DNA of 20,483 nt, taken from a virus. Position 1 is the first letter of the stretch. Every line of letters starts with the position of its first letter. The stretch lies in IMG/VR virus record IMGVR_UViG_3300035070_003110, positions 1 to 20,483 of that record; one strand, written 5' to 3'. The notes under the pieces were generated by a model. The model searched no databases. It saw only the letters and a program-made list of their open reading frames with translations, and was not told the DNA's origin. The translations under genes and the position numbers were made by a program. Below, piece after piece: positions 1,409 to 18,655 of the stretch.

Positions 1409-4400
1409 TTAAGCATCTAATGTTACTGTATATGTTACTCCATTTATTAATTCCAATGTAGTTGAAATTCCTACTTGTGCTTCAACAAAAGAAATATTTT
1501 CCGCCGATGTAGACTGATACCATGAGTAGCTTGTAGGCGCGGCGTTTAGCGACCAAGTTCCATAGGTTCCATTGGAACCGGTTATTCTTCCGCCAGCATC
1601 AGCTGCAATTGAAGGTATAGATGTAAGATCGCTTGATATAAACGAAATTTGAGGTCCAAGCGCTTGTCCTGGGCTTTGCGTTGAGAATACACCTAAGCCA
1701 TAATCGTCTCCAGGATTAATCAAAAAACTTCCCCCAATGAGTTTCAAGCCATCAGCCCTATAAACATAAGATTCTAAAGATTGAGAAGCTGATACTGCTG
1801 TACCTGGGCTTCCTCCTATTAAAAGACCAAGAGAAGAGGCGTGCCATCCTGTCGATAATTGTAATGATCCTCCAGGTCCACCCGTAAGTATGCCAGCTGT
1901 GAACCTCCAAGTGAATAGTGCTACGCTTGCTTGTGCCTGTGCAATAGGCACTACAACTGTAAGCCCTGTGGAATATGTTATAGTTATAACTCCATTCCTA
2001 GCGGGAGTCCCGTCAGCACTTGTTGCTACAGTATAAGATACGCTATCGCCAGAATTGCCAGAAGGTGTTACTGCTGATATAAACGAACTAGGATTCGTGG
2101 TAGCTGAGGCTGTCCAGGTTGCTCCTGAAACACTGCTAGTAATTGGGCCAAGCGTAAACGTTCCGCCAAATTCCGCTATATTTACTTGACTACCTGATCC
2201 ACTCGCCACATTTTCATTTCCTATAAAATAGGTTGCTACCCCTGCAGCTAGCTGAATTGTTATTATTCTTGTTAAAACATTCCCTGATGTTGTGGTCGCA
2301 GTAATTGTTATGGTTGCAGATTTGGCTGGTTCACCATCTGCATTAGGCGCCACAGTATAAGTTATATCACTTGTAGCATTACCCGATGAAGATAGCGATG
2401 ATATTATATTACTGCTATCACTAGTTTCTATAGCACTCCACGTTAAACCTGAATCACCAGTTACTAAATCAATTGTCTGAGCACCCCCCGAAGCAGTAAA
2501 GCTATCTATAAAATTACCATTATTACCATCAAGGGTAAGAGTTTCTGTATTCGCGGCTTGTGATACAGTAATAGTTATTATTGTGCCAAATACACTTGTA
2601 ACGGTAAATGAATCTGATATTTGACTACTTGTGCTATTAGCGCTTGCTTTAGTGATAGTTATAGTAGTGTTATTAGTCTTAACTAAAGAATATAAGCTGT
2701 TAGATGACTGAGCTGGTATAGTCCAACCTGCTAAATCAGCGGCAACCGTTCTGGTTGTTGATCCCCCTGTTTGTGGGATTAACCCAGCCCCTGAAACGCT
2801 AATAGCATCTGTAGTTGTTACTAGTGGGTTAGTGCCTGCGGCTGCTTCATCAATATCGCTAAATCCATCATTATCATCATCAAGATCAGCATTGTTGCCT
2901 ATTCCGTCACCGTCTGTGTCTATACTTTCATTAGGATCTAATGGGAAAGCATCATTTATATCTAACACCCCATCTCCGTCGTCATCAGTATCAGCGTTAT
3001 CTCCCGTTCCATCTCCATCTGTATCAACGTATTCATTTGGGTCTAGTGGAAACGCATCAGCACCATCCGCAACTCCGTCACCGTCGTCGTCAGTATCAGC
3101 GTTATCTCCCGTTCCATCACCATCAGTATCGGTGTCTTCTGCTGGATCAAGCGGGAAAGCGTCGGCGCCATCGAGAGTTCCATCATTGTCGTCGTCGGGA
3201 TCTGTTATGTCGGGGTCTCCATCGCTATCTGAGTCTACGTAAGCGTTACCTGTTATATTAACTAATACATCATCATCTGAGTCTGTAGAAACGCCTGATA
3301 ATGTACCGTTTATTTGTGTATATGTAGGTCCGCTTCCAACAAGTGTTGGCCCAGTAACAGTAACAGCCCCTTCGCTGGTTGTTGTTAAGCTAACCAAGTG
3401 GGGATTGTCAAATACAAGTGCTCCGTCGCTAGTTATAGTATAAGGTTTAGACCACGCTCGGCTACTAACATTTACAATATCTGTTAAATTGTTTATTGCA
3501 ATTGTTTGCTGAACGCCGTTAAAACCTCTATTATTTAAACCTGTGTCAAAGAAAATTGTTGAAATTTTTCTAGGCCCCCCGGTTGGTGTGAAATTAGATG
3601 CTACAGGCTCTGTTCCATGCACTCCTTGTAAAACCCAAGATACTGTAATTGTTGATGTTGGCGTTCCATCAAAAGCCAATGAACTAAGCGATGAAACTGT
3701 TGGCGTGATTGACACGGAAGCTATATTAGCTTGAGAGTGTCCATCCGCAACAAAACTTGAAACCGAAGCGGCGAAATCAGTACTATGCCACGTAAAGCCG
3801 CTAGCTGCTGTTAAGACAACGCTAAGCTCAGTCCCCGTTACAGCTGCTCCAGCTGCGGAGCCTATATAGGTTATTGTTTGTTTACTTACTGTGTAATTAG
3901 GACCGTCAACAAAATTTAGTATAACTGCAGGTCTCACCCAAGCTACAATATTTGTTAGCTGTATTTCATATAAAGCATCTTCGCTTTGCATTGTGCCTTC
4001 AGAATATTCTAAAAATAATAGTAAATTTCCATCCCCATCTAAAGAAGCAGTTCCTTGGCAAAAGTCAATGCCCGGATCAATATCTGCAGTAACAAGCGAT
4101 ATTTCTTCGTTAATTTTTAAAGCAACTAAATTTGCGGCAACTTCGGCGGGTGTGCCGAATAAGTTCCATGAACCCGTGCCTGGGCTTATTGTTAACTTTA
4201 TAAAATTCCCTTTAAACTTTTGACCTTCTTCTAATGGGCCTATAACTGTATCATGAGTCCACTCTGTTGCGGATATAACAGTGCCGCCTTGATTGGGTTG
4301 TGGTATATCTACATCATCTGTTTGAAATCTAATTGTTACTTTGCTGGATGTGTCTTGTTTTAATGTGTCTAAAACTACATTTGTAGTCTCCGAACCTTCT

Positions 4401-5413
4401 TCAGCTACAATTTCAAAACTCCAGTCTATATTGGTAACGTCGTCGTTTGTATCTGGGTCGCATATAGCGTTGCCTGCTGAAGCGTCAGTTGCTGAGCTTG
4501 GTATTCTAACTGTTTGTGCAAAAGTGCCATTAGAATCAATTAAAACAACTATAGATATAGCTGGATATGTTGCAGATGATGTTGATGGGGTTACGGTTGG
4601 TGTAATATTAACAGTTGCTTGAGCCCCTGCATCACCTGTTGCTGTAATAATTATAAAACCACCATTTAAGCCATCAAGATTATCTGTATTAACATCTATG
4701 TTTTCAATTGATAATGTTTCTGCTTCGTCAAAATCTTCAATTGGCACAGTTACAATATTGCCACCACTGCTATCGGTAATATCACCTGTCGTTACAGCAA
4801 CGTCGCCTAAAACTAAATCATCATTTGGAATAACTACAATTATGTCGTATACTAAGTCACCGTCGTTGTTTAAAACCCCATCACCTAATTTAAAAGGCGA
4901 CGGCAAATCAATGGTTAAGTCATCTGGATCACCATCATTGTTTCCATCGGGCAATTCGTTTTCTTCATCTGATTTTATTATCAATTCACCTACTACTATT
5001 TCGTCCCCCTCTTCCCCATCAACAACTACATCGAGTATACCATCAGTGATTAAATTGCCATCAGCATCTAAAACGTCAAATTCAAAGCCATCGCTAGGAG
5101 TGTCATCAAAAGTAATATCCCCTTCTACGGTTATATTTGAAATAACCGCATCTCCAGTTAAATTTAAATTAGATTCAATATCCTCTTCTCCGTAGTTTAT
5201 AGAGTCAATTAAATCAAATGTTATTACAACGTTTGCTCCAACCTTTGTTTTAACAATATTTTCATATATATTAGTAGGGTCGTTAATTGAAAAATCAGCT
5301 GTTCTTAGCCTAAAGCCAGGGAGCGGAGTAAGCTCCAGCGTGACAGTTTGAGTGCCAGCGCTGGTGCCTATTTGCCCAGTTATACTAGTTATAGTATACG
5401 TGTAATTAGCCAT
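1409..5413 (-). CDS. Giant modular tail adhesin with TSP type 3 repeats and three BACON-like domains
   Basis: This 1334-residue protein is probably a tail fibre or host-surface adhesin. Residues 1-45 form a beta module (ending GFRLRTADF) that recurs at about 504-548 (GFTWHSTDF), so an early domain appears duplicated. Residues about 75-240 are very acidic and Asp/Asn-rich. Residues about 724-864 are thrombospondin type 3 repeats (DTDGDGTGDNADTDDDGDG pattern), which bind calcium and form a stiff rod. Three BACON-like domains follow, at about 865-953, 954-1057 and 1058-1161. Each ends in the typical strand pattern (ITVSQAA, ITIQLAA, VVPIAQA), and the last has GTPARNGVITITYS. BACON domains are linked to carbohydrate or mucin binding and also occur in crAssphage. 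The Gly/Ser-rich tail (1162-1334) may be the receptor-binding tip. The gene starts 3 bases after the muzzle gene stop and has no signal peptide, consistent with assembly into virions. Confidence 0.85.
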   Translation of the reverse strand: MANYTYTITSITGQIGTSAGTQTVTLELTPLPGFRLRTADFSINDPTNIYENIVKTKVGANVVITFDLIDSINYGEEDIESNLNLTGDAVISNITVEGDITFDDTPSDGFEFDVLDADGNLITDGILDVVVDGEEGDEIVVGELIIKSDEENELPDGNNDGDPDDLTIDLPSPFKLGDGVLNNDGDLVYDIIVVIPNDDLVLGDVAVTTGDITDSSGGNIVTVPIEDFDEAETLSIENIDVNTDNLDGLNGGFIIITATGDAGAQATVNITPTVTPSTSSATYPAISIVVLIDSNGTFAQTVRIPSSATDASAGNAICDPDTNDDVTNIDWSFEIVAEEGSETTNVVLDTLKQDTSSKVTIRFQTDDVDIPQPNQGGTVISATEWTHDTVIGPLEEGQKFKGNFIKLTISPGTGSWNLFGTPAEVAANLVALKINEEISLVTADIDPGIDFCQGTASLDGDGNLLLFLEYSEGTMQSEDALYEIQLTNIVAWVRPAVILNFVDGPNYTVSKQTITYIGSAAGAAVTGTELSVVLTAASGFTWHSTDFAASVSSFVADGHSQANIASVSITPTVSSLSSLAFDGTPTSTITVSWVLQGVHGTEPVASNFTPTGGPRKISTIFFDTGLNNRGFNGVQQTIAINNLTDIVNVSSRAWSKPYTITSDGALVFDNPHLVSLTTTSEGAVTVTGPTLVGSGPTYTQINGTLSGVSTDSDDDVLVNITGNAYVDSDSDGDPDITDPDDDNDGTLDGADAFPLDPAEDTDTDGDGTGDNADTDDDGDGVADGADAFPLDPNEYVDTDGDGTGDNADTDDDGDGVLDINDAFPLDPNESIDTDGDGIGNNADLDDDNDGFSDIDEAAAGTNPLVTTTDAISVSGAGLIPQTGGSTTRTVAADLAGWTIPAQSSNSLYSLVKTNNTTITITKASANSTSSQISDSFTVTSVFGTIITITVSQAANTETLTLDGNNGNFIDSFTASGGAQTIDLVTGDSGLTWSAIETSDSSNIISSLSSSGNATSDITYTVAPNADGEPAKSATITITATTTSGNVLTRIITIQLAAGVATYFIGNENVASGSGSQVNIAEFGGTFTLGPITSSVSGATWTASATTNPSSFISAVTPSGNSGDSVSYTVATSADGTPARNGVITITYSTGLTVVVPIAQAQASVALFTWRFTAGILTGGPGGSLQLSTGWHASSLGLLIGGSPGTAVSASQSLESYVYRADGLKLIGGSFLINPGDDYGLGVFSTQSPGQALGPQISFISSDLTSIPSIAADAGGRITGSNGTYGTWSLNAAPTSYSWYQSTSAENISFVEAQVGISTTLELINGVTYTVTLDA
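2878..3190 (-). repeat. Tandem 105-base repeats encoding calcium-binding TSP3 units
   Basis: About three copies of a 35-codon unit lie in tandem inside the adhesin gene. A 28-base stretch beginning CAGTATCAGCGTTATCTCCC on the plus strand is identical at 2986 and at 3091, which sets the 105-base period. Each unit encodes an Asp-rich calcium-binding loop followed by DAFPLDPNE or a close variant (DAFPLDPAE in one copy). The near-identity at DNA level suggests recent duplication and possible copy-number change by slippage or recombination. Confidence 0.85.
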
Positions 5414-5416
5414 ATT

Positions 5417-8400
5417 TTATTGTACATTAAATGTTATTGTAGTGTTTCCGCTTGGTTCTGATGGTGGATTGCCGTTAACTAAAGTAGCGCTGACCATTGG
5501 TCCAATACCAAGATACTCATTTTGAGATGAGTTTGATTGTATTGAAAACTCATAAGCGTCTTCATTATTAGCTAAGCCGTTAGATATGCTTTTTAAGTTA
5601 TCTTTTTTATAAAAATCTATAGGACCGTTTGGATCTATTAAATTATTTAATTCAGTGATAACGTTAACATTGCTAATACCATTTATGTTATTATACCATT
5701 TACCTTCTTTATTTTCAAAATCAATAACATAACCAGCTTGTTGATCGGTAAGTATAAAAGGAACTTGCCAACCAGCCGTTCCCTCGTAGTTAATTGTTTT
5801 AAAACTTTTAATTGCAGAGGGTTCTTGATTAAATACGGTGGTTAAGTATGATTTATATTGAACATTGTAAAAGTTATTTCTATTAACGTTTACTGAATTA
5901 TGCTGCCATATATCACCTTGATTAAATGTATAAAAAATGTTATTAACAGAAACACCAGCTTCTGGCACATATGAAACCCTAGAAACCCAACCTTTTTGAT
6001 CTTCAGAAAAAGTTAAACTATAATCATCTAAAGACAATAAGTATTGTCCATTATAAGAATCATAGCTACCTATTAACTTGCTTGAATTAGAGTTTAGTTT
6101 GTCTCTAAAGAAATCACTCATTCCAGATTCTGAAATTTCAGTAATGCCATCTGTTGATATTCTTATAACAGAACCTCTTGGTCTATCTGTAAAATACATT
6201 CTATTTGCATATGACGCAAAAGATGACGGGTCTAGCCCAATACCAAAATCACCTAAAAACGGAGTGGTTTGGCCTAACACCCTATTGGAAGCTACAACCT
6301 GTGGGTTACCTGAACCACTATACAATATGTCTTTATCAGCCATTATTGTAAACACTTTGCTTTCGCATAAAGCCACTAAATTAGTGTCTCTTGTGTGAAG
6401 CTTTTGCAAGCTACCATAGTTGGGTTCCAAATCTTTAGTTATACCATCTGAATAAACAAATTCATTTAACCTGTTTGTTCCAGTTCTAGAGTTATATATT
6501 CCAGAAAATATTAAACCAGCTTTTCTTCTTTCTTTTGCGTAGTTTTCTTGTGGTACATTTACTCTAACACCCTTAGCCATTTGAACAGAATTAAACTTAT
6601 CAAATACTCTTTGTGTTTCTAAAAATACCCCATCTTTAACAAACGCAATACAATTATAAAAGTCTAGTGTTTGTGTATTACCGTGTTCTGCAATAGGTAT
6701 AGACTTGCTAGCTTCCCAAAATAAGTTAAGATTACTATCTTCAATTTCAGGAACTGTTTCAAACCATATTGTTTGCAATGTGTTTACTTCATTCTCATCA
6801 TTGAAGGTAGATTGACCTGTTGGTAGGTTGTGTAATCCTACTGGAACTTTTATTTCTTTGCCTAGCAATGTTTTTCTAACCGTAAAGTTTTTATTGCTTG
6901 TACTTCTTTTTACTTTAGCAAAGAAAGATCCTTGTATATTTTTAAGAGCATTTTCTGTAATATCGCCTTTAAATATTGCAAAGTCTTTCCTATATGGGTC
7001 TACCCCAACCGGCTCTTCTAAAACTATCTTAAGAACATCTCTAACATCGTAATTATTAGTAATGTTAAATTGAGAAAACCCTAATGAAATTTCAAGAATT
7101 TTTATTTTATTTGCAATTGATTTAACCGTATTGCTCGTACCAATATCACCTACTCCATACCAAAGCCCCCCCTCTAATTCAGAAACGTCAATTGTCTGAA
7201 CAAACTCAGCGGGTTGGATTTCACTAACGTCGTCTGCTACTTGCAAGCTGCCTAAATTTTCAAAAGCAAGAATGTTATTAATAGCTGATATTAAAGGTAT
7301 ATTTTTATATCCATTATTATTCTCGCTAGCTTCATAAAACAGTTCAGTAGAATTAGTTAAAGTTCCCTCAGCTGCTTCAGTGTCATTGGCTGCTTGAAAA
7401 CCTACGCTATTTAAAAATACAGTTTTACCTCCGCTTCCGGAGTAATCATATTTTACAGTATTAGCTACTTTTCTTGTCTCTACAGGCAATTGATTTTTAA
7501 CTATATCTGGAGCTTCGTTTTCAATTTCTATTATACGATGCTTAGATAAGTTTTTAACTATGTAGTTAAATTGTTCTACAGGTGGAGCTGTAGCGTTAGG
7601 ATCTACAGGGGTAAATAATGTTTTAAATGTAGTATCAACAATATCCATGTAAACATTGCCCTTTCTTCTTGATCTATTTTTAAAAATAAAAGGTCTCACC
7701 CTATCATTTACTTCTAAATCATACTCTACTGTAACATAAAACCTAAAATCTCTATCTTTATTTCCGCTTTCTCTTATTCTGGTTATTTTAAATTTTGCAG
7801 AATTTTCAAAAGAATGATTTAAAGAACCAAATGATTGACCACTTTTTGCTTTTTGGAAAGAGGCATATGGTTCTATGTATGCAGCATCATTCCCCACAGT
7901 AAAACCTTTGGTTAATCTAACAAAGCTAAGGTTGCCTTCAAACTCAAAAGAATATTTACCAGCAACAGCACAAGTAAAAATCCAATCAGAATTATTTATT
8001 GTGCTATTTACGCCGTTATTAACAAACGACTGGTCCGCACTACCCGCAACACCAGGTGCCCATATAGTTGTATCCCTAGTTTCTTCGTTATAACTTTTAT
8101 CTACATTAAAGTTAATATTACTTAAACTTCCGTCTGTAATGCCGCTAGACTGTTTAGTAAAAGCAAGTGAGTTAGTACCGTTACCAGTGATTAAATCACC
8201 GTGAGTATGTCTTCTAGGTATTATGAAAGTATCTTCACTTACTTTATTTCTGTCATTAGAATCTATTTGCAGCCATATAAACTCGCTATTGTCTTTATCT
8301 CCATCACCATCATTAAACGTGTTGTAAACAGGAAAATTATGGTGGTCGTTAGAAGAGTCCTTAACGTAGTATTTGAAATGAGTTGCCCAGTCAGGCGCTG

Positions 8401-11056
8401 CGCTTGTTATTTTAGCAGCTAAAGACTGCGTTCCGTTTGAACTAAATTTAGTTGTGTATTTAGTTCCTTCGCCTACTAAAAGAGCTCCTTGTCTACCAGG
8501 TGCGTCCTCGTAAACAACTCCAACTTCATAATCTCTAGCGCTCTTAACGCTTAATCCGCTGGAAGTCGATTTTTCTTTTTGAGTTACAGTTATATCAGCA
8601 GAAGCTTCTTGCTCAAAGCCAAATTCATAGTTACCATATATAAGTCTATTAGCGGTAACCTCTTGGGCTTTAGCTAAGGATGGTATACTATCAAAATGTC
8701 TTGATAATTGATTATTAGGTAGAGCCGAGTAAAAAGATCTTTTTGTAAACACCTGATCTTTTATATAATTAGGATCTGTACCAAAATCTTTTTTACGTAT
8801 TGTTTTTAAAGTATATACAGTTGAACTTATTGATTCTGTGTATAGCACTTCTACTTCAATAACATCTTCTTCCCCTTTTGGTATATTACCAACGGTTATT
8901 TCTGTTACTATATTTCTAGCCGCTTTATTATAGCCTTCTTTAAAATGCTCTTTTGAGTCATACTCATCAACTTCAAATACAGGTTCTGTAAAAAACGAGA
9001 ACGGGCTATATTCGCCATCTGAAAATTTCCATCTGTATGCAAATTGCGGAAATATTTCTTCAAAAGGAAGTATTTCTTTATCTGCATCAACAACGGCTTT
9101 AGTTGTTAACCTTTCCTTTGGGTGTGGCTTAATTACAGTTAGATCGCTATCTAAAAAGTTTCTTGAATATATTTTTGTTGGAACTGCCGAATGATTTGCT
9201 TTTTTCCACTTGTTAATATTAAGTTTACGTGGCTCATTTTTATCGTCTGTCCAGAACAACATTCCGTCAATGACGTTAATCCCTGTGATTAAGAAATCAG
9301 TAGAAAAACCTAAATCTCCACGTACTAATGTGTTTATAGCCCCTGAAGCGGGCACGTATTCATAAACTCCATCATAATCATTAGCGTGAATAAACCAATA
9401 GACGTTGCCACTTGACGCGTCTGCAATAGAGCCAATACACACAGCGCTTGTTCCAATACTTTCTGTAATTGTTTCTACAATATCCGGTGTTCCTGGAATT
9501 GCTGGTATAGCTGGTATTTCAGGTGTGCCTGGCACAGTTATTTGTCTGGGTATATTTAATATTGTGCCACTAGTTGGAGTTGGTGTTAAATCAGCTCGAA
9601 GGGTCAAAGTAAATTCTCCAGAGCTTTCAGTAACAGCATCAATTATAGTTGCATTGGTTGCTGTTATAGTTTCTCCAACACTTGGGTCTGGATTTTCAGC
9701 ATTAGCTTTAGTAACAACAACTTCTGCAGGCGTACCGCTTAAAGCGTTACTTCCACCAACGTACGCTAACTTATAAACCGCAGTTGGAGTAGACAAATTG
9801 GTTGTATCCGAAGTGTAAGTAGGCGCTGAAGAAAGAGTTACGTTGTTACCGTCTACAGCTGTTACACTTGGTATTACTGTGTCTTCTAATATAGATGGTT
9901 GTCTAAACCCGTAAAAGTCGCCTACAGCGAGATTGTTGGTGTTCATTGCAACAACATACGGGCTAGTTGTAACAACGGAACCAAATGTTGACACATTTCC
10001 TGCAAACTCATAAAATCTTTGAAAAGTTAAAACATCGCCATCTACATAGCTAAATGTGTCTGACGTTGTAAAACTATTTCCTTGATTCTGCGTTGAAGTT
10101 TGACCAACACCACCATTATCAAAAGTTATTATAAATGAATTATTATTAGCGTCTGTTAAAAGCAACTGCTCGTTGTGCTGAAAAGACGTATCGTTTTCAT
10201 CAAATAAAGTTCCAGCTGTTAGCGTATAATTAAAACCACCGGTAGTTGTTCCCGCAATAGGGTCCACCGGGCCATATATAGTATATGTGCCTACATTATT
10301 GCCATCAGGGTCGTGATCCGCATATGGAATTGTAATTAAAGTGTCTATTGTAATTAAATAGCCATCTTGCGTAGCATCATAAGCTCCAGCTGATGTTATT
10401 GTTACAGTTTGATTGCCTGATGCGGGTGGTGTGTAATTTGAAAAAGGATCGTAAAGATCTGCTGAGTGTAACCCAATTATGATTTTATCACCAACCTGTG
10501 GTGCATTACCAGGGTTGTTTTCTGTATATGGTGGAAAATTTCCTCTTATGTAAAAAGTAGTTGTGCTTGTTGGTAATAAACCATTTATACCATCAGTTGT
10601 TAAAGTTCCTATTACTACACCTTTTTTAACAGAAGCGCCGTCAGACCCAGCGTATCCTCCGGTTGTGGTCGTTGTGTTGTCAGAGCTAGAAAACGTTCCG
10701 TTTACTCTAATTGTTTGTGTAGCCGAAGCTGGCTGAGCGGGGCCCTGCTCTGTGTAAGAAACAACATTAAAATTATGGTTTTCAACTACAGTTGACTCAG
10801 GCACTGCTGGCACCGCTGGTACTTCAGGCGTTCCTGGTGTCCCAGGTGTTGTTACTGTTCTAGTGGTGGTTAAAGATCCGAAGCCTGGGCCTTTTAACTC
10901 ATTGCCTAATAAATTTTCAACAGTGCTAGCGTCTGATGATTCTGAAGTGCCTATATTTACATTTAAAGCATCTCGATATTCTCCGGGACTAATTAGCCGT
11001 TCGTCTAAATCTTTATTTAAACGACCTGCTAAAAATGTATTTTTAATTTCTGGCAT
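5417..11056 (-). CDS. Giant tail nozzle / stabilisation ('muzzle'-type) protein with an inserted beta-rich segment
   Basis: This is 1879 residues, far longer than T7 gp12, which closes the T7 tail. The start MPEIKNTFLAGRLNKDLDER, followed by GEYRDALNV, is a recurrent opening of large tail proteins in crAss-like and marine short-tailed phages, where they form the distal tail tube or muzzle. Blade-like segments follow, such as GNVYWFIHAND and LFWTDDKNEPRKLNI (about residue 600), then FAYRWKFSDGEYSPFSFFTE, consistent with beta-propeller and beta-sandwich folds. Residues about 89-505 form a Thr/Ser/Asn-rich beta segment bracketed by two similar hinges, PGTPGTPEVPAVPAVPE (71-87) and PGTPEIPAIPAIPGTP (about 507-522), which looks like an insertion. 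The gene lies 3 bases after the second ring protein and 3 bases before the adhesin, as expected for a tail-assembly series. The exact family name is inferred from context and recognition, not a search. Confidence 0.8.
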   Translation of the reverse strand: MPEIKNTFLAGRLNKDLDERLISPGEYRDALNVNIGTSESSDASTVENLLGNELKGPGFGSLTTTRTVTTPGTPGTPEVPAVPAVPESTVVENHNFNVVSYTEQGPAQPASATQTIRVNGTFSSSDNTTTTTGGYAGSDGASVKKGVVIGTLTTDGINGLLPTSTTTFYIRGNFPPYTENNPGNAPQVGDKIIIGLHSADLYDPFSNYTPPASGNQTVTITSAGAYDATQDGYLITIDTLITIPYADHDPDGNNVGTYTIYGPVDPIAGTTTGGFNYTLTAGTLFDENDTSFQHNEQLLLTDANNNSFIITFDNGGVGQTSTQNQGNSFTTSDTFSYVDGDVLTFQRFYEFAGNVSTFGSVVTTSPYVVAMNTNNLAVGDFYGFRQPSILEDTVIPSVTAVDGNNVTLSSAPTYTSDTTNLSTPTAVYKLAYVGGSNALSGTPAEVVVTKANAENPDPSVGETITATNATIIDAVTESSGEFTLTLRADLTPTPTSGTILNIPRQITVPGTPEIPAIPAIPGTPDIVETITESIGTSAVCIGSIADASSGNVYWFIHANDYDGVYEYVPASGAINTLVRGDLGFSTDFLITGINVIDGMLFWTDDKNEPRKLNINKWKKANHSAVPTKIYSRNFLDSDLTVIKPHPKERLTTKAVVDADKEILPFEEIFPQFAYRWKFSDGEYSPFSFFTEPVFEVDEYDSKEHFKEGYNKAARNIVTEITVGNIPKGEEDVIEVEVLYTESISSTVYTLKTIRKKDFGTDPNYIKDQVFTKRSFYSALPNNQLSRHFDSIPSLAKAQEVTANRLIYGNYEFGFEQEASADITVTQKEKSTSSGLSVKSARDYEVGVVYEDAPGRQGALLVGEGTKYTTKFSSNGTQSLAAKITSAAPDWATHFKYYVKDSSNDHHNFPVYNTFNDGDGDKDNSEFIWLQIDSNDRNKVSEDTFIIPRRHTHGDLITGNGTNSLAFTKQSSGITDGSLSNINFNVDKSYNEETRDTTIWAPGVAGSADQSFVNNGVNSTINNSDWIFTCAVAGKYSFEFEGNLSFVRLTKGFTVGNDAAYIEPYASFQKAKSGQSFGSLNHSFENSAKFKITRIRESGNKDRDFRFYVTVEYDLEVNDRVRPFIFKNRSRRKGNVYMDIVDTTFKTLFTPVDPNATAPPVEQFNYIVKNLSKHRIIEIENEAPDIVKNQLPVETRKVANTVKYDYSGSGGKTVFLNSVGFQAANDTEAAEGTLTNSTELFYEASENNNGYKNIPLISAINNILAFENLGSLQVADDVSEIQPAEFVQTIDVSELEGGLWYGVGDIGTSNTVKSIANKIKILEISLGFSQFNITNNYDVRDVLKIVLEEPVGVDPYRKDFAIFKGDITENALKNIQGSFFAKVKRSTSNKNFTVRKTLLGKEIKVPVGLHNLPTGQSTFNDENEVNTLQTIWFETVPEIEDSNLNLFWEASKSIPIAEHGNTQTLDFYNCIAFVKDGVFLETQRVFDKFNSVQMAKGVRVNVPQENYAKERRKAGLIFSGIYNSRTGTNRLNEFVYSDGITKDLEPNYGSLQKLHTRDTNLVALCESKVFTIMADKDILYSGSGNPQVVASNRVLGQTTPFLGDFGIGLDPSSFASYANRMYFTDRPRGSVIRISTDGITEISESGMSDFFRDKLNSNSSKLIGSYDSYNGQYLLSLDDYSLTFSEDQKGWVSRVSYVPEAGVSVNNIFYTFNQGDIWQHNSVNVNRNNFYNVQYKSYLTTVFNQEPSAIKSFKTINYEGTAGWQVPFILTDQQAGYVIDFENKEGKWYNNINGISNVNVITELNNLIDPNGPIDFYKKDNLKSISNGLANNEDAYEFSIQSNSSQNEYLGIGPMVSATLVNGNPPSEPSGNTTITFNVQ
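9495..9532 (-). repeat. Inner copy of the Pro-hinge direct repeat in the muzzle gene
   Basis: By hand alignment this 38-base stretch matches 10800-10837 at about 29 of 38 positions, in the same orientation and frame. Most differences are third-position changes. It encodes a PGTPEIPAIPAIP-type hinge at the C-terminal border of the putative insertion. Confidence 0.7.
10800..10837 (-). repeat. Outer copy of the Pro-hinge direct repeat in the muzzle gene
   Basis: This is the partner of 9495-9532 and encodes a PGTPEVPAVPAVPE-type hinge at the N-terminal border of the putative insertion. The two copies are about 1.3 kb apart. This copy is richer in C and G at third positions than its partner, so the duplication is not very recent or the copies had different sources. 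Confidence 0.7.
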
Positions 11057-13559: not shown

Positions 13560-15008
13560 CTACTTCAATAAGAAGAAGTTGTTTGCACCTTGAGTAATCA
13601 AACATCTTTCAGATAAGAAATTAACTCGCATCTCATCTACAGAAGAAGTATAAGCTCCTCCAACAGATCCAGTGATCCAAGTTTTCATTTTTCTATCATC
13701 AGTTTCAGATGAACGATAACGGATGTGTAAGAATGGACGCTTGATGTTTTTACCAAGATCTTGATCGTACACAGTAGAGGTACCTGCAGGAATAATAGCT
13801 CCTTCAACATCTCCAAATCCACCGCGAGTTGCGAAGTCATTTAGATATTTCCAGTCAGTTTTGTAGAAGTCATAAGAACCTCTGCGGAAACCGCTAAATC
13901 CTAGGTTAAGAGCCATGTCTTCAGAGTTATTAAATACTCCGTAAGAAGTACCTCCTGCTCCGTAAGAATTTTTAGCTGCTAATGCATCGTCAATTGATAA
14001 AGATAAAGCACGGTTACTATAGATCATATTTTCTTCAATAGATCCGTTTTTATCCAATTGCTTAAGGATGCTGTCAAAACCAGTCATGTCAGTACCTAGA
14101 TCTGTAGAAAGACCTCCGTATACATTTCCACGCGCTTCTAATGCAGCAAAGAATCCTTCAGAACCAGAATAAGTTCCAATATCAGATCCTGCTCCAGCAG
14201 TTTTTACTGCTTCAACCATAGTCATTTCTAAGTTGTCTTCAAAACGTAAACGAGTTTCGTGCTCAGACTTTAGGTACCATAGGTATCCGCTAGCTCCGTT
14301 TTCTGAAGCAACTTCAATCCATCCGATTTGTGCAGTGTCAGAACCATTAACAGCATAGTTATCTTTTAAGATAATAGGCTTGTTAGTGTAAGAAGAGTAG
14401 TCAGAATCTACAGATCCAATCATTCCGTCAGTTCCTTTTGCAAATTCAGAACCATAAGCAAGCACGGTAGCATGGTCATAAGAAGCAGCTCCGGTAACAG
14501 CACCAAAGTTAGCAGCAGTATAACATACAGCTGTAAAGGTACCTGTGTCTCCTGCTCCAGCAGCTCCAGCAACTGTAACAACACCTTTTAATACAGGTCC
14601 AGTAGCAACGTTTGCGCTAGTTTGTCCTTGTACCATAATGGTTTGTCCAGCACGGAATATAGGTGCAGCACCAGCAGCATGTGCAGATCCATCGGCGTTA
14701 GCATCAAAAGTTACTGTAAATACAGTAGCTCCGTTAGCTCCAGCTGCTGCAAGAGCAACATTTTGGTAACGCGTGTGTAGACGACCTTGCTCTACCCAAC
14801 GAATTTCGTCAGATGTAGATGGCATTTCAGCTGATACCATACGTAGGAAAGAAGAGATAGAACGGTTTCCGTAAATTTCAGCTTCCTTTTCGTATACGTC
14901 AGGTAAAAATTGTTTTGTAAAATCGAAATCATTAATGTAATTTCCTTGAAATAATACTCCCTTAGTTGCTGAGGGAGATAAGTGTTCAATGCCAGTAGTT
15001 ATAGCCAT
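13560..15008 (-). CDS. Major capsid protein (HK97-fold, crAss-like/marine type)
   Basis: This 482-residue protein follows the portal and scaffold genes, as the capsid gene should. Sequence landmarks are an N-terminal arm (YEKEAEIYGNRSISSFLR then DEIRWVEQGRLHTRY), an Ala/Gly-rich beta segment (about 85-180) likely holding the E-loop and an inserted domain, then QIGWIEVASENGASGYLWYL and a helix HETRLRFEDNLEMTMVEAVK typical of the spine helix. It ends SERCLITQGANNFFLL. Codon use differs from its neighbours, with many CGT, ATC, CAC and GCT codons, as expected for the most abundant virion protein. It ends in two adjacent TAG codons, whereas every other complete gene here ends in TAA, and a strong terminator follows at once. 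The start has no Shine-Dalgarno site but has an A/T-rich leader. Confidence 0.88.
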   Translation of the reverse strand: MAITTGIEHLSPSATKGVLFQGNYINDFDFTKQFLPDVYEKEAEIYGNRSISSFLRMVSAEMPSTSDEIRWVEQGRLHTRYQNVALAAAGANGATVFTVTFDANADGSAHAAGAAPIFRAGQTIMVQGQTSANVATGPVLKGVVTVAGAAGAGDTGTFTAVCYTAANFGAVTGAASYDHATVLAYGSEFAKGTDGMIGSVDSDYSSYTNKPIILKDNYAVNGSDTAQIGWIEVASENGASGYLWYLKSEHETRLRFEDNLEMTMVEAVKTAGAGSDIGTYSGSEGFFAALEARGNVYGGLSTDLGTDMTGFDSILKQLDKNGSIEENMIYSNRALSLSIDDALAAKNSYGAGGTSYGVFNNSEDMALNLGFSGFRRGSYDFYKTDWKYLNDFATRGGFGDVEGAIIPAGTSTVYDQDLGKNIKRPFLHIRYRSSETDDRKMKTWITGSVGGAYTSSVDEMRVNFLSERCLITQGANNFFLLK

Positions 15009-16270: not shown

Positions 16271-18655
16271 TTACCTAGGCTCAAAGCTACTTAAATCAAA
16301 TCCGCCTAATACATCATTGCCCTTAGACTCAAAAGACTTTTGAGGTTTTGGTATTGATGGAGGGCCAGATATATCAGAATCTGTAATTTTGCTTCCAGCC
16401 ATTTCTTTTTTAGCATCTAATTCCATTTTTTTAAGCTTAGTATTTAAATCAAACTCAAATTGCATAAGCTCTTTTTTGGTAATAGCCTCTACTTCTAGCT
16501 TTTTTATGTCATAATTAGTTTGTGCCTCAGAAAGTTTCATTTTAGCTTCTGCTTTAATTGTTTCAGCTTGAGCCTTCGCTAGTTCAGCAGCTTGAGCCGC
16601 TTGTGCGTTTGCTTGTGATTGAGCTGCTATGTTTCTTTCTGCTTTTTGCTGGTCTAAAGCTTCTTTCTTAGCTCTTCTGTATTTCAACAGCTGGTTAGCT
16701 AGTTTAATATTTTTTACCTGTCGAATATCAATTACATCATCTAAATGTATTTGATCTCTTGACAAAGCTATTTGAATGTTATTTTCAACAAGCTGTTTTT
16801 CGTCTTCATCAGGATCAAGCTCTATAAAAATACCAAAATCATGCAGATGTAGCTTCTCCATTTCTTTCAAAGCCCCTACACTAAATCTACCTATTGACGT
16901 AACTAAAGCGTCCCTTTGTGGGTGAAATTCTAAAACATCTTTTACCCTAATAGATATAGCCTCTGCTAACGCTGTGGTTATATAAAGAGAACTATACAGG
17001 ATATGTCTTGTTGCTGTGTTAGAATTGGCAGCCGCTAGCTTTTGAACCCCAACAAGTGCGTAAGGATCTGGATCAGAACCATCTCTAGCTTCATTTAATC
17101 CAGTTACATCGCGTATCATGTTTAGATAATAGTTGTAAGCTTGTATTAACAACTGGGATTGTTGTCCACCGCCACCAGGCAATTCTTGAATAGGTATTTT
17201 GCCAGCATTCATTTCTCCATCAACTGTCATAGATCTACCTATAACAGAACCTGTTTGAAAATATAAATTTAAAGCTTCTTGCGGATTATAATTTGTTCCA
17301 TTGCCTAAATCAATTTCAGCTAAACCATCTGCATCCAAATAAACGCCTGAAGGCGTCATTCTCTGTAGCACTTGCTGCAATTTTAAATGCGTTAGCTGTA
17401 TTAAGTTAGCATATGTCTCCATTCGGCTAACTAAGCTCTCAATTTTGCCTTGATACATTCTAGGAGCGCTAACAACGTAATTCATAATTACTTTATTAGC
17501 ATTGGAGTTTTCTCTAACCATGTTAGAAGCTTTCTCCCATTTAAGAAGATTATTAGCTCCCAGCACCATAACGCCTTCATAAATAGTCTCTACTGCTGTT
17601 TCAACTTTTTCAAACCTAGTTCTTTGATCTTTTGGAGGATTGAACGTGTCGTCTTTTCTGATTGCTTTTTTCGCTCCAGTAGATGTTTCTTTTATTTTAT
17701 AAACACTTTTTTCCCAAGTTTTCCAATTAAAATAAAGAACACTTAATGTGTTACTGTCATAAGAATCATCTAAATTGTTTGTTGCGTAATCGTAGTTTTT
17801 ATAGTTGCTAGATTGTTTAACGGCAAGATCAAACTCTTCGTCAGATAAATTAGGAAATTGTTTTTTAAGCTCGTTGCTTTTTATTTGCTTTATTTCGCCA
17901 AAATAATACACATCTTGAAAGTCTGGATCTTCTGTATGCGAGTATATAAGGTTTGCGGGGTCAACATACTCTAGCGTAATGCCATCCGTATTATTAAACC
18001 CATGTTTTGCAGCTGATATGCCTAAAACTGTTTGGTCGTAATCAAGCCGTTTTTTTAAGCTTGAAAACTTGTTCCGCAAGAACACATTATTAATAGCTTG
18101 TTCTTGTGCTATCTCAATACTTTGTTTGTAACCTATTTGCATGTAAAGCTCCAACTCTTCTTTGTCGGTTGGCAAATCTTCATCAGGTACTGTTTTTACC
18201 CCCACTCCTAAAGCATCTTCTATTGAGGATAAAAAATCTTTTGCCATCATTTCGTTTGAAACTGTTTCAACAAAATCCGTTCTTGTCTGTATTGACGTTG
18301 GGTCTTGTGCAAAAGCTTTAACTGTAAACAATCTGTCTTGCATTCCGTTTACAACAATATCTACAAACTTAGGAATAATTGGGACTGGTGTCCAATCTAA
18401 GTTTAAATAAGATAAATCGCCGTTAACAGAAAATTCGTCTTTGTACTTTTGAATTGATTGCTCACCTCTTGCATATAATCTCAACTTATGAAAGTCTCTT
18501 TGGTTTTGAGCAAACCTTCCTGTACCAGATGATTTTCTGAACCACTCATTTTGTATACCTCGCGCCACTTCCATTCCGTAGTCTTTGCTCGCTTTGGTAG
18601 CATCGTCAACCGATTGGCTGGGAAATTGGGTAACTTGTCCTGTAGCTTCTGCCAT
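16271..18655 (-). CDS. Portal protein (crAss-like type)
   Basis: This 794-residue protein forms the ring at one capsid vertex through which DNA enters and leaves, and is about the length usual for crAss-like portals. It has the early pattern KYKDEFSVNGDLSYLNLDWT, then IIPKFVDIVVNGMQDRLF (about 70-115), a central clip/stem region, and RDVTGLNEARDGS (about 508-520), a recurrent portal motif, followed by a long helix (NTATRHILYSSLYITTALAE). Residues about 660-755 form a Gln/Ala/Lys-rich coiled coil, probably the barrel or crown inside the capsid. The last 40 residues are Pro/Ser-rich and may be flexible. The gene begins 2 bases after the terminase stop, has no Shine-Dalgarno site, and is followed after 31 bases by the scaffold gene. 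Confidence 0.88.
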   Translation of the reverse strand: MAEATGQVTQFPSQSVDDATKASKDYGMEVARGIQNEWFRKSSGTGRFAQNQRDFHKLRLYARGEQSIQKYKDEFSVNGDLSYLNLDWTPVPIIPKFVDIVVNGMQDRLFTVKAFAQDPTSIQTRTDFVETVSNEMMAKDFLSSIEDALGVGVKTVPDEDLPTDKEELELYMQIGYKQSIEIAQEQAINNVFLRNKFSSLKKRLDYDQTVLGISAAKHGFNNTDGITLEYVDPANLIYSHTEDPDFQDVYYFGEIKQIKSNELKKQFPNLSDEEFDLAVKQSSNYKNYDYATNNLDDSYDSNTLSVLYFNWKTWEKSVYKIKETSTGAKKAIRKDDTFNPPKDQRTRFEKVETAVETIYEGVMVLGANNLLKWEKASNMVRENSNANKVIMNYVVSAPRMYQGKIESLVSRMETYANLIQLTHLKLQQVLQRMTPSGVYLDADGLAEIDLGNGTNYNPQEALNLYFQTGSVIGRSMTVDGEMNAGKIPIQELPGGGGQQSQLLIQAYNYYLNMIRDVTGLNEARDGSDPDPYALVGVQKLAAANSNTATRHILYSSLYITTALAEAISIRVKDVLEFHPQRDALVTSIGRFSVGALKEMEKLHLHDFGIFIELDPDEDEKQLVENNIQIALSRDQIHLDDVIDIRQVKNIKLANQLLKYRRAKKEALDQQKAERNIAAQSQANAQAAQAAELAKAQAETIKAEAKMKLSEAQTNYDIKKLEVEAITKKELMQFEFDLNTKLKKMELDAKKEMAGSKITDSDISGPPSIPKPQKSFESKGNDVLGGFDLSSFEPR

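Follow-up and report, generated by a model that had tools for sequence, protein, structure and literature searches.

The locus studied here raises the question of how a phage muzzle protein came to hold a long Thr-rich segment, with a similar Pro hinge near either end, between its N-terminus and its propeller, and of what such a segment may do. The gene lies in what we call the window, the whole 20.5 kb stretch of a virus record that was analysed, in which the long genes are on the minus strand. It runs over 5417..11056 (−) and encodes a protein of 1879 aa that matches phrog_14478 (E 1.8e-109). Residues 1725-1791 (5684..5884, −) match the C-terminal muzzle domain crAss_MUZ_C (Pfam PF25729, E 1.7e-12), exceeding the curated cut-off; gp44 of PhicrAss001 has this domain together with the N-terminal crAss_MUZ (PF25731). 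In the Pfam search, no crAss_MUZ match was reported for the window muzzle at E 0.1; two insert-free homologues, L001 and L072, do match this model, and the match is plausibly missed in the window muzzle because the insert splits the matching stretch. Compared with gp44, the window muzzle has ~475 extra residues in its N-terminal stretch.

In order of rising coordinate, the muzzle gene is preceded by a large gene at 1409-5413, which encodes thrombospondin-type repeats (Pfam), and is followed by structural genes matching phrog_13977 and phrog_14543, one more gene, a structural protein gene at 13560-15008 that is taken to encode the major capsid protein, and further genes up to 20469. These last are taken to be scaffold, portal and terminase from their size and order; only the portal among them has a Pfam match, and a weak one (P22_portal, E 0.0023). 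Among annotated records, the nearest come from flavobacterial phages, namely those of Cellulophaga, Flavobacterium, Maribacter and Tenacibaculum, and the muzzle-like proteins of Callevirus phi38:1, Maribacter phage Panino, Tenacibaculum phage Gundel_1 and Elemovirus are ~29-33% identical to the window muzzle over the conserved parts. In each region of these phages that was examined, the muzzle gene comes after two similarly sized genes, annotated as structural or hypothetical, an arrangement also seen in the window. Inside the large gene, 105-nt tandem repeats at 2927-3196 encode Asp-rich repeats of thrombospondin-type-3-like character.

The preliminary description proposed that a cassette of about 417 residues had been inserted between the hinges, to be checked by looking for homologues that lack it. 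The insertion itself is borne out by comparison with 79 related loci that have a muzzle homologue, taken from the best 80 of 298 matches, a non-independent sample in which near relatives are favoured. L001, the closest relative among the matches listed, has 93% DNA identity over the genes upstream of the insert, and its neighbouring genes are mostly 97-100% identical to those of the window (portal 86%). Homology to L001 in blastn ends at window position 10902 and restarts at 9437. In the E-INS-i MAFFT alignment, the stretch from N52 to I541 comprises 488 residues in the window muzzle and 13 in L001. In the same alignment, the loop measures 10-37 residues in 75 of the 78 homologues compared (again from the best 80 of 298 matches); it has 13-20 residues in five annotated phage records, with 13-15 in phi38:1, Panino, Gundel_1 and Elemovirus against 488 in the window muzzle. 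L001-L004 are among the relatives without the insert. Given that all the outgroups lack it, a gain in the window lineage is the simplest history. Judged by these alignments, the hinge-bounded segment is a real, in-frame and lineage-specific insertion, which leaves the sequences of the N-terminal segment and blade 1 intact. Nor does it appear to be an integral part of the core, since the adjacent, confidently predicted blade is intact in relatives without the segment.

The extent first proposed has to be revised. By homology, from the alignment and from blastn against L001, the insert covers residues about 54-538 (9443..10897, −), ~475 aa net with both hinges included, and is thus slightly wider than the hinge-to-hinge interval. 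The conserved N-terminal core that precedes it, residues 1-53 (MPEIKNTF...VENLLGNE; 10898..11056, −), is 100% identical to L001 over residues 1-50 and contains invariant alignment columns. The segment had been called rich in Thr, Ser and Asn, which holds chiefly for Thr (17.1% of residues 54-538 vs 7.0% of the muzzle outside the insert), with Ser at 7.6% vs 8.8% and Asn at 7.2% vs 9.1%; K+R fall to 2.6% from 9.8%, and a composition count of residues 54-538 found no W or C. Synonymous codons in the insert are used much as they are elsewhere in the gene (RSCU correlation 0.94; GC3 0.235 vs 0.220), and the insert is therefore a resident coding segment. Its 485 codons stay open, whereas the other five frames of the stretch hold 19-43 stops. 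The motif VG[DE] occurs in three copies in the insert, a number reached in 12 of 5000 shuffles; it was considered as the mark of a domain family, and no demonstrable family resulted.

The two hinges, PGTPEVPAVPAVP on the N side (residues 74-86; 10799..10837, −) and PGTPEIPAIPAIP on the C side (residues 509-521; 9494..9532, −), lie within one base of the positions in the preliminary description (10800-10837 and 9495-9532). Compared directly, they agree at 10 of 13 residues with a BLOSUM62 score of 68, against a maximum of 46 for any off-diagonal 13-mer pair when the whole protein was shuffled 40 times and the insert 200 times. The DNA match is weak (30 of 39 nt), and the pair is missing from the DNA repeat listing of the window. 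The nucleotide differences include synonymous changes, so that a fresh DNA duplication can be discounted. It had been expected that relatives with the empty site would retain a single hinge, but none of the muzzle homologues carries one, and insertion into a pre-existing hinge repeat is accordingly unsupported. Since no relative has a single hinge, both are counted as part of the insert; they either arrived with it or evolved inside it. The full hinge pattern gave 0 matches in viral contigs, and a shorter pattern gave 4, in unrelated GC-rich sequences that we read as convergent Pro-rich linkers.

Where the insert sits in the protein was modelled with AlphaFold2 on residues 1-700, using 49 homologous rows; the mean pLDDT was 48, and nothing is therefore asserted from this model about how the insert folds. 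Two short low-confidence strands (residues 33-37 and 44-48) are followed by the insert and then by a first propeller-like blade at residues 539-580 (9317..9442, −), with pLDDT about 91-95 from residue 541 and four strands at 539-545, 552-557, 562-568 and 573-580. Of the architecture that marks a crassvirus-type muzzle, a hexamer with a seven-bladed propeller, two IG domains and a crass fold, this first blade region is the only part predicted with confidence in the window muzzle. The insert proper is predicted, with low confidence, mainly as strands; a beta part at residues 161-240 (10337..10576, −) is its only moderately confident block (pLDDT 38-76), the remainder having mostly 22-48. That most of the insert falls below 50 is attributed to its being a segment without homologues. 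The homologue L072 shows the same order of short strands, loop and blade at residues 65-107, and its C-terminal part is below pLDDT 50. According to the models, the site of the insert is the loop that connects an N-terminal beta hairpin to the first propeller blade predicted with confidence. The two short strands may themselves be part of a propeller blade, with the loop facing outward, and exposure of the insert is likely because this loop adjoins blade 1, outside the confidently folded core. The interpretation in the preliminary description is supported in part: the inserted cassette is borne out, and the host-range role that it raised may apply.

The published cases of length variation in muzzles are insertions into the crass domain and into IG2, IG1 being placed between blades 2 and 3, at residues 163-292 of gp44 (PMC10172136). 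Residues 6-148 of L001 match crAss_MUZ positions 5-154 of 1224, a match that spans the loop with almost no length difference. If the crAss_MUZ model follows the gp44 numbering closely, the insertion site precedes IG1 and lies near the ring-joining domain and the first blades. The insert places muzzle variation at a site other than those described for crAss001, and in the literature we found, short of a full survey, no description of this loop as an insertion site.

Longer loops at the same place were seen in three of the 78 homologues: L030 (98 aa), L036 (117) and L029 (225). A beta-like, Gly-rich unit is common to L029, which has two copies, and L036, which has one, the aligned parts being 61-81% identical; the L030 insert differs from this unit. 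The difference between L029 and L036 in the loop after residue 52 amounts to a tandem duplication or loss of the unit. These inserts are beta-like and occupy the same loop as the window insert but bear no sequence relation to it. Kinship with those of L029 and L036 was suggested by a weak BLAST similarity and rejected as no better than shuffles, and in comparisons with the L029, L036 and L030 inserts shuffled sequences scored as well in 30-47 of 60 trials. The presence of beta-type inserts in the three relatives indicates that the loop tolerates insertion, and by sequence there are at least three kinds of insert at this one loop within the homologue sample. Tentatively, the loop ahead of blade 1 in crass-type muzzles might be a hot spot for insertions, one that acquires, sheds and tandemly duplicates unrelated beta modules and so provides the phages, in addition to fibres and crass domain, with a second, exchangeable site for adhesion on the tail. 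By eye, the muzzles of L019, L021, L047 and L067 have more long beta-like stretches, of variable length, elsewhere in their N-terminal half, at residues about 110-400.

Searches for relatives of the insert elsewhere gave nothing credible, whether by protein scans of viral contigs and genome contigs, by tblastn in phages up to E 10, in the records of 20 relatives, or by phmmer against the related loci (ORFs of 60 aa or more). Against PHROGs and Pfam up to E 5 the only match was a hinge-sized one to a PHROG (E 0.17), and Pfam had none at E 5. No PDB chain was found by sequence with the muzzle profile or with the muzzle protein itself; the nozzles of SU10 and T7 have no detectable sequence similarity even to each other (PMC9509320).

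On balance we favour the reading that the insert is an accessory beta module in a permissive muzzle loop, projecting from the tail and aiding adsorption. In this reading, the window lineage gained a beta module, probably of several parts, in an insertion-tolerant loop directly before blade 1. Extended Pro-Ala-Val/Ile hinges would hold it away from the propeller, and up to six copies would project from the tail if the muzzle is hexameric like that of crAss001. With its polar, Thr-rich beta surface, the module could attach to a polysaccharide or a surface protein of the host and thereby help adsorption beside separate tail fibres. Several points count against this reading. The insert has no homologue of known function, and its model (mean pLDDT 48) provides no usable structure. 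In the crAss001 structure, the part proposed to contact the cell is the crass domain (PMC10172136), whereas the loop before blade 1 lies elsewhere, towards the N-terminus.

The main rival, by analogy, is fibre docking or stabilisation, in which the insert would be a docking or bracing element for a fibre or hub and the muzzle, thanks to the hinges, could keep a fibre against the tail until the phage infects. It owes this position to SU10, in which a loop from blade 1 of the nozzle propeller docks a short tail fibre, blades 1-3 being those away from the channel (PMC9509320). The SU10 dock, too, extends from a tail-tip propeller close to blade 1; however, it is built on Trp residues (839, 847 and 857) far from the N-terminus, whereas the window insert lies ahead of blade 1 and contains no Trp. 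Docking would also fit the fact that the C-terminal half of the product of gene 1409-5413 differs between the window phage and L001, so that both proteins change together, but the half expected to dock is the N-terminal one, which is 84% identical over 759 residues. Moreover, the fibres of crAss001 are anchored on hub proteins of the barrel rather than on the muzzle (PMC10172136). We regard docking as unlikely.

That the insert is neutral decoration, a domain accretion tolerated in a permissive loop and without selected function, seems rather improbable. The length of the loop is indeed free to vary (10-37 residues), L029, L036 and L030 have unrelated inserts there, and none of the libraries searched contains a relative of the window insert; yet an open frame of 485 codons has been kept, with codon use like that of the gene, where the other five frames contain stops, and the two end hinges resemble each other more than shuffles do. 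An assembly error that fused two phages of the metagenome would account for an insert carried by only one contig, but is very improbable: both ends are in frame inside a conserved gene, the codon use is the same, the hinge pair is present at both ends, and the L001 homology restarts directly across the insert. Inteins favour conserved sites, and although a large in-frame insertion missing from close relatives might recall an intein, or a diversity-generating element with its variable region, we give such an origin almost no weight, since the site is a variable loop, residues 54-538 lack any Cys and, even at E 5 in Pfam, any recognisable Hint or endonuclease domain, and a scan of window proteins (a subset of the ORFs of a record of only 20 kb) recognised no reverse transcriptase.

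Exposed loops of tail proteins commonly receive domain insertions, and beyond its new site and the phage pair the insert is ordinary. The window phage and L001 form a clean pair, near-identical in most neighbouring genes and differing in the module and the large gene, so that the role of the module could be tested if carriers were cultured. Along the muzzle, identity to L001 is 44-92% per 50-residue block over residues 951-1350 and 98-100% over residues 1501-1850. In gene 1409-5413 there is no match beyond residue 759, and by sequence its C-terminal part appears to be a swapped module. The L001 counterpart downstream of the muzzle (L001 12267-19132) encodes about 2289 aa vs 1334 aa in the window, and the next two genes beyond are 99-100% identical. 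That the variation is found for the most part in regions of the tail likely to touch the host fits the adsorption role favoured above, the covariation of the insert with the large gene coming from this single phage pair. Two differences fall outside the host-contact pattern. One is in gene 79-675, with 61% identity over 74 residues. The other is in the portal-like protein (16271-18655), which is 86% identical while its flanking genes are 98-99% identical, a divergence possibly due to recombination.
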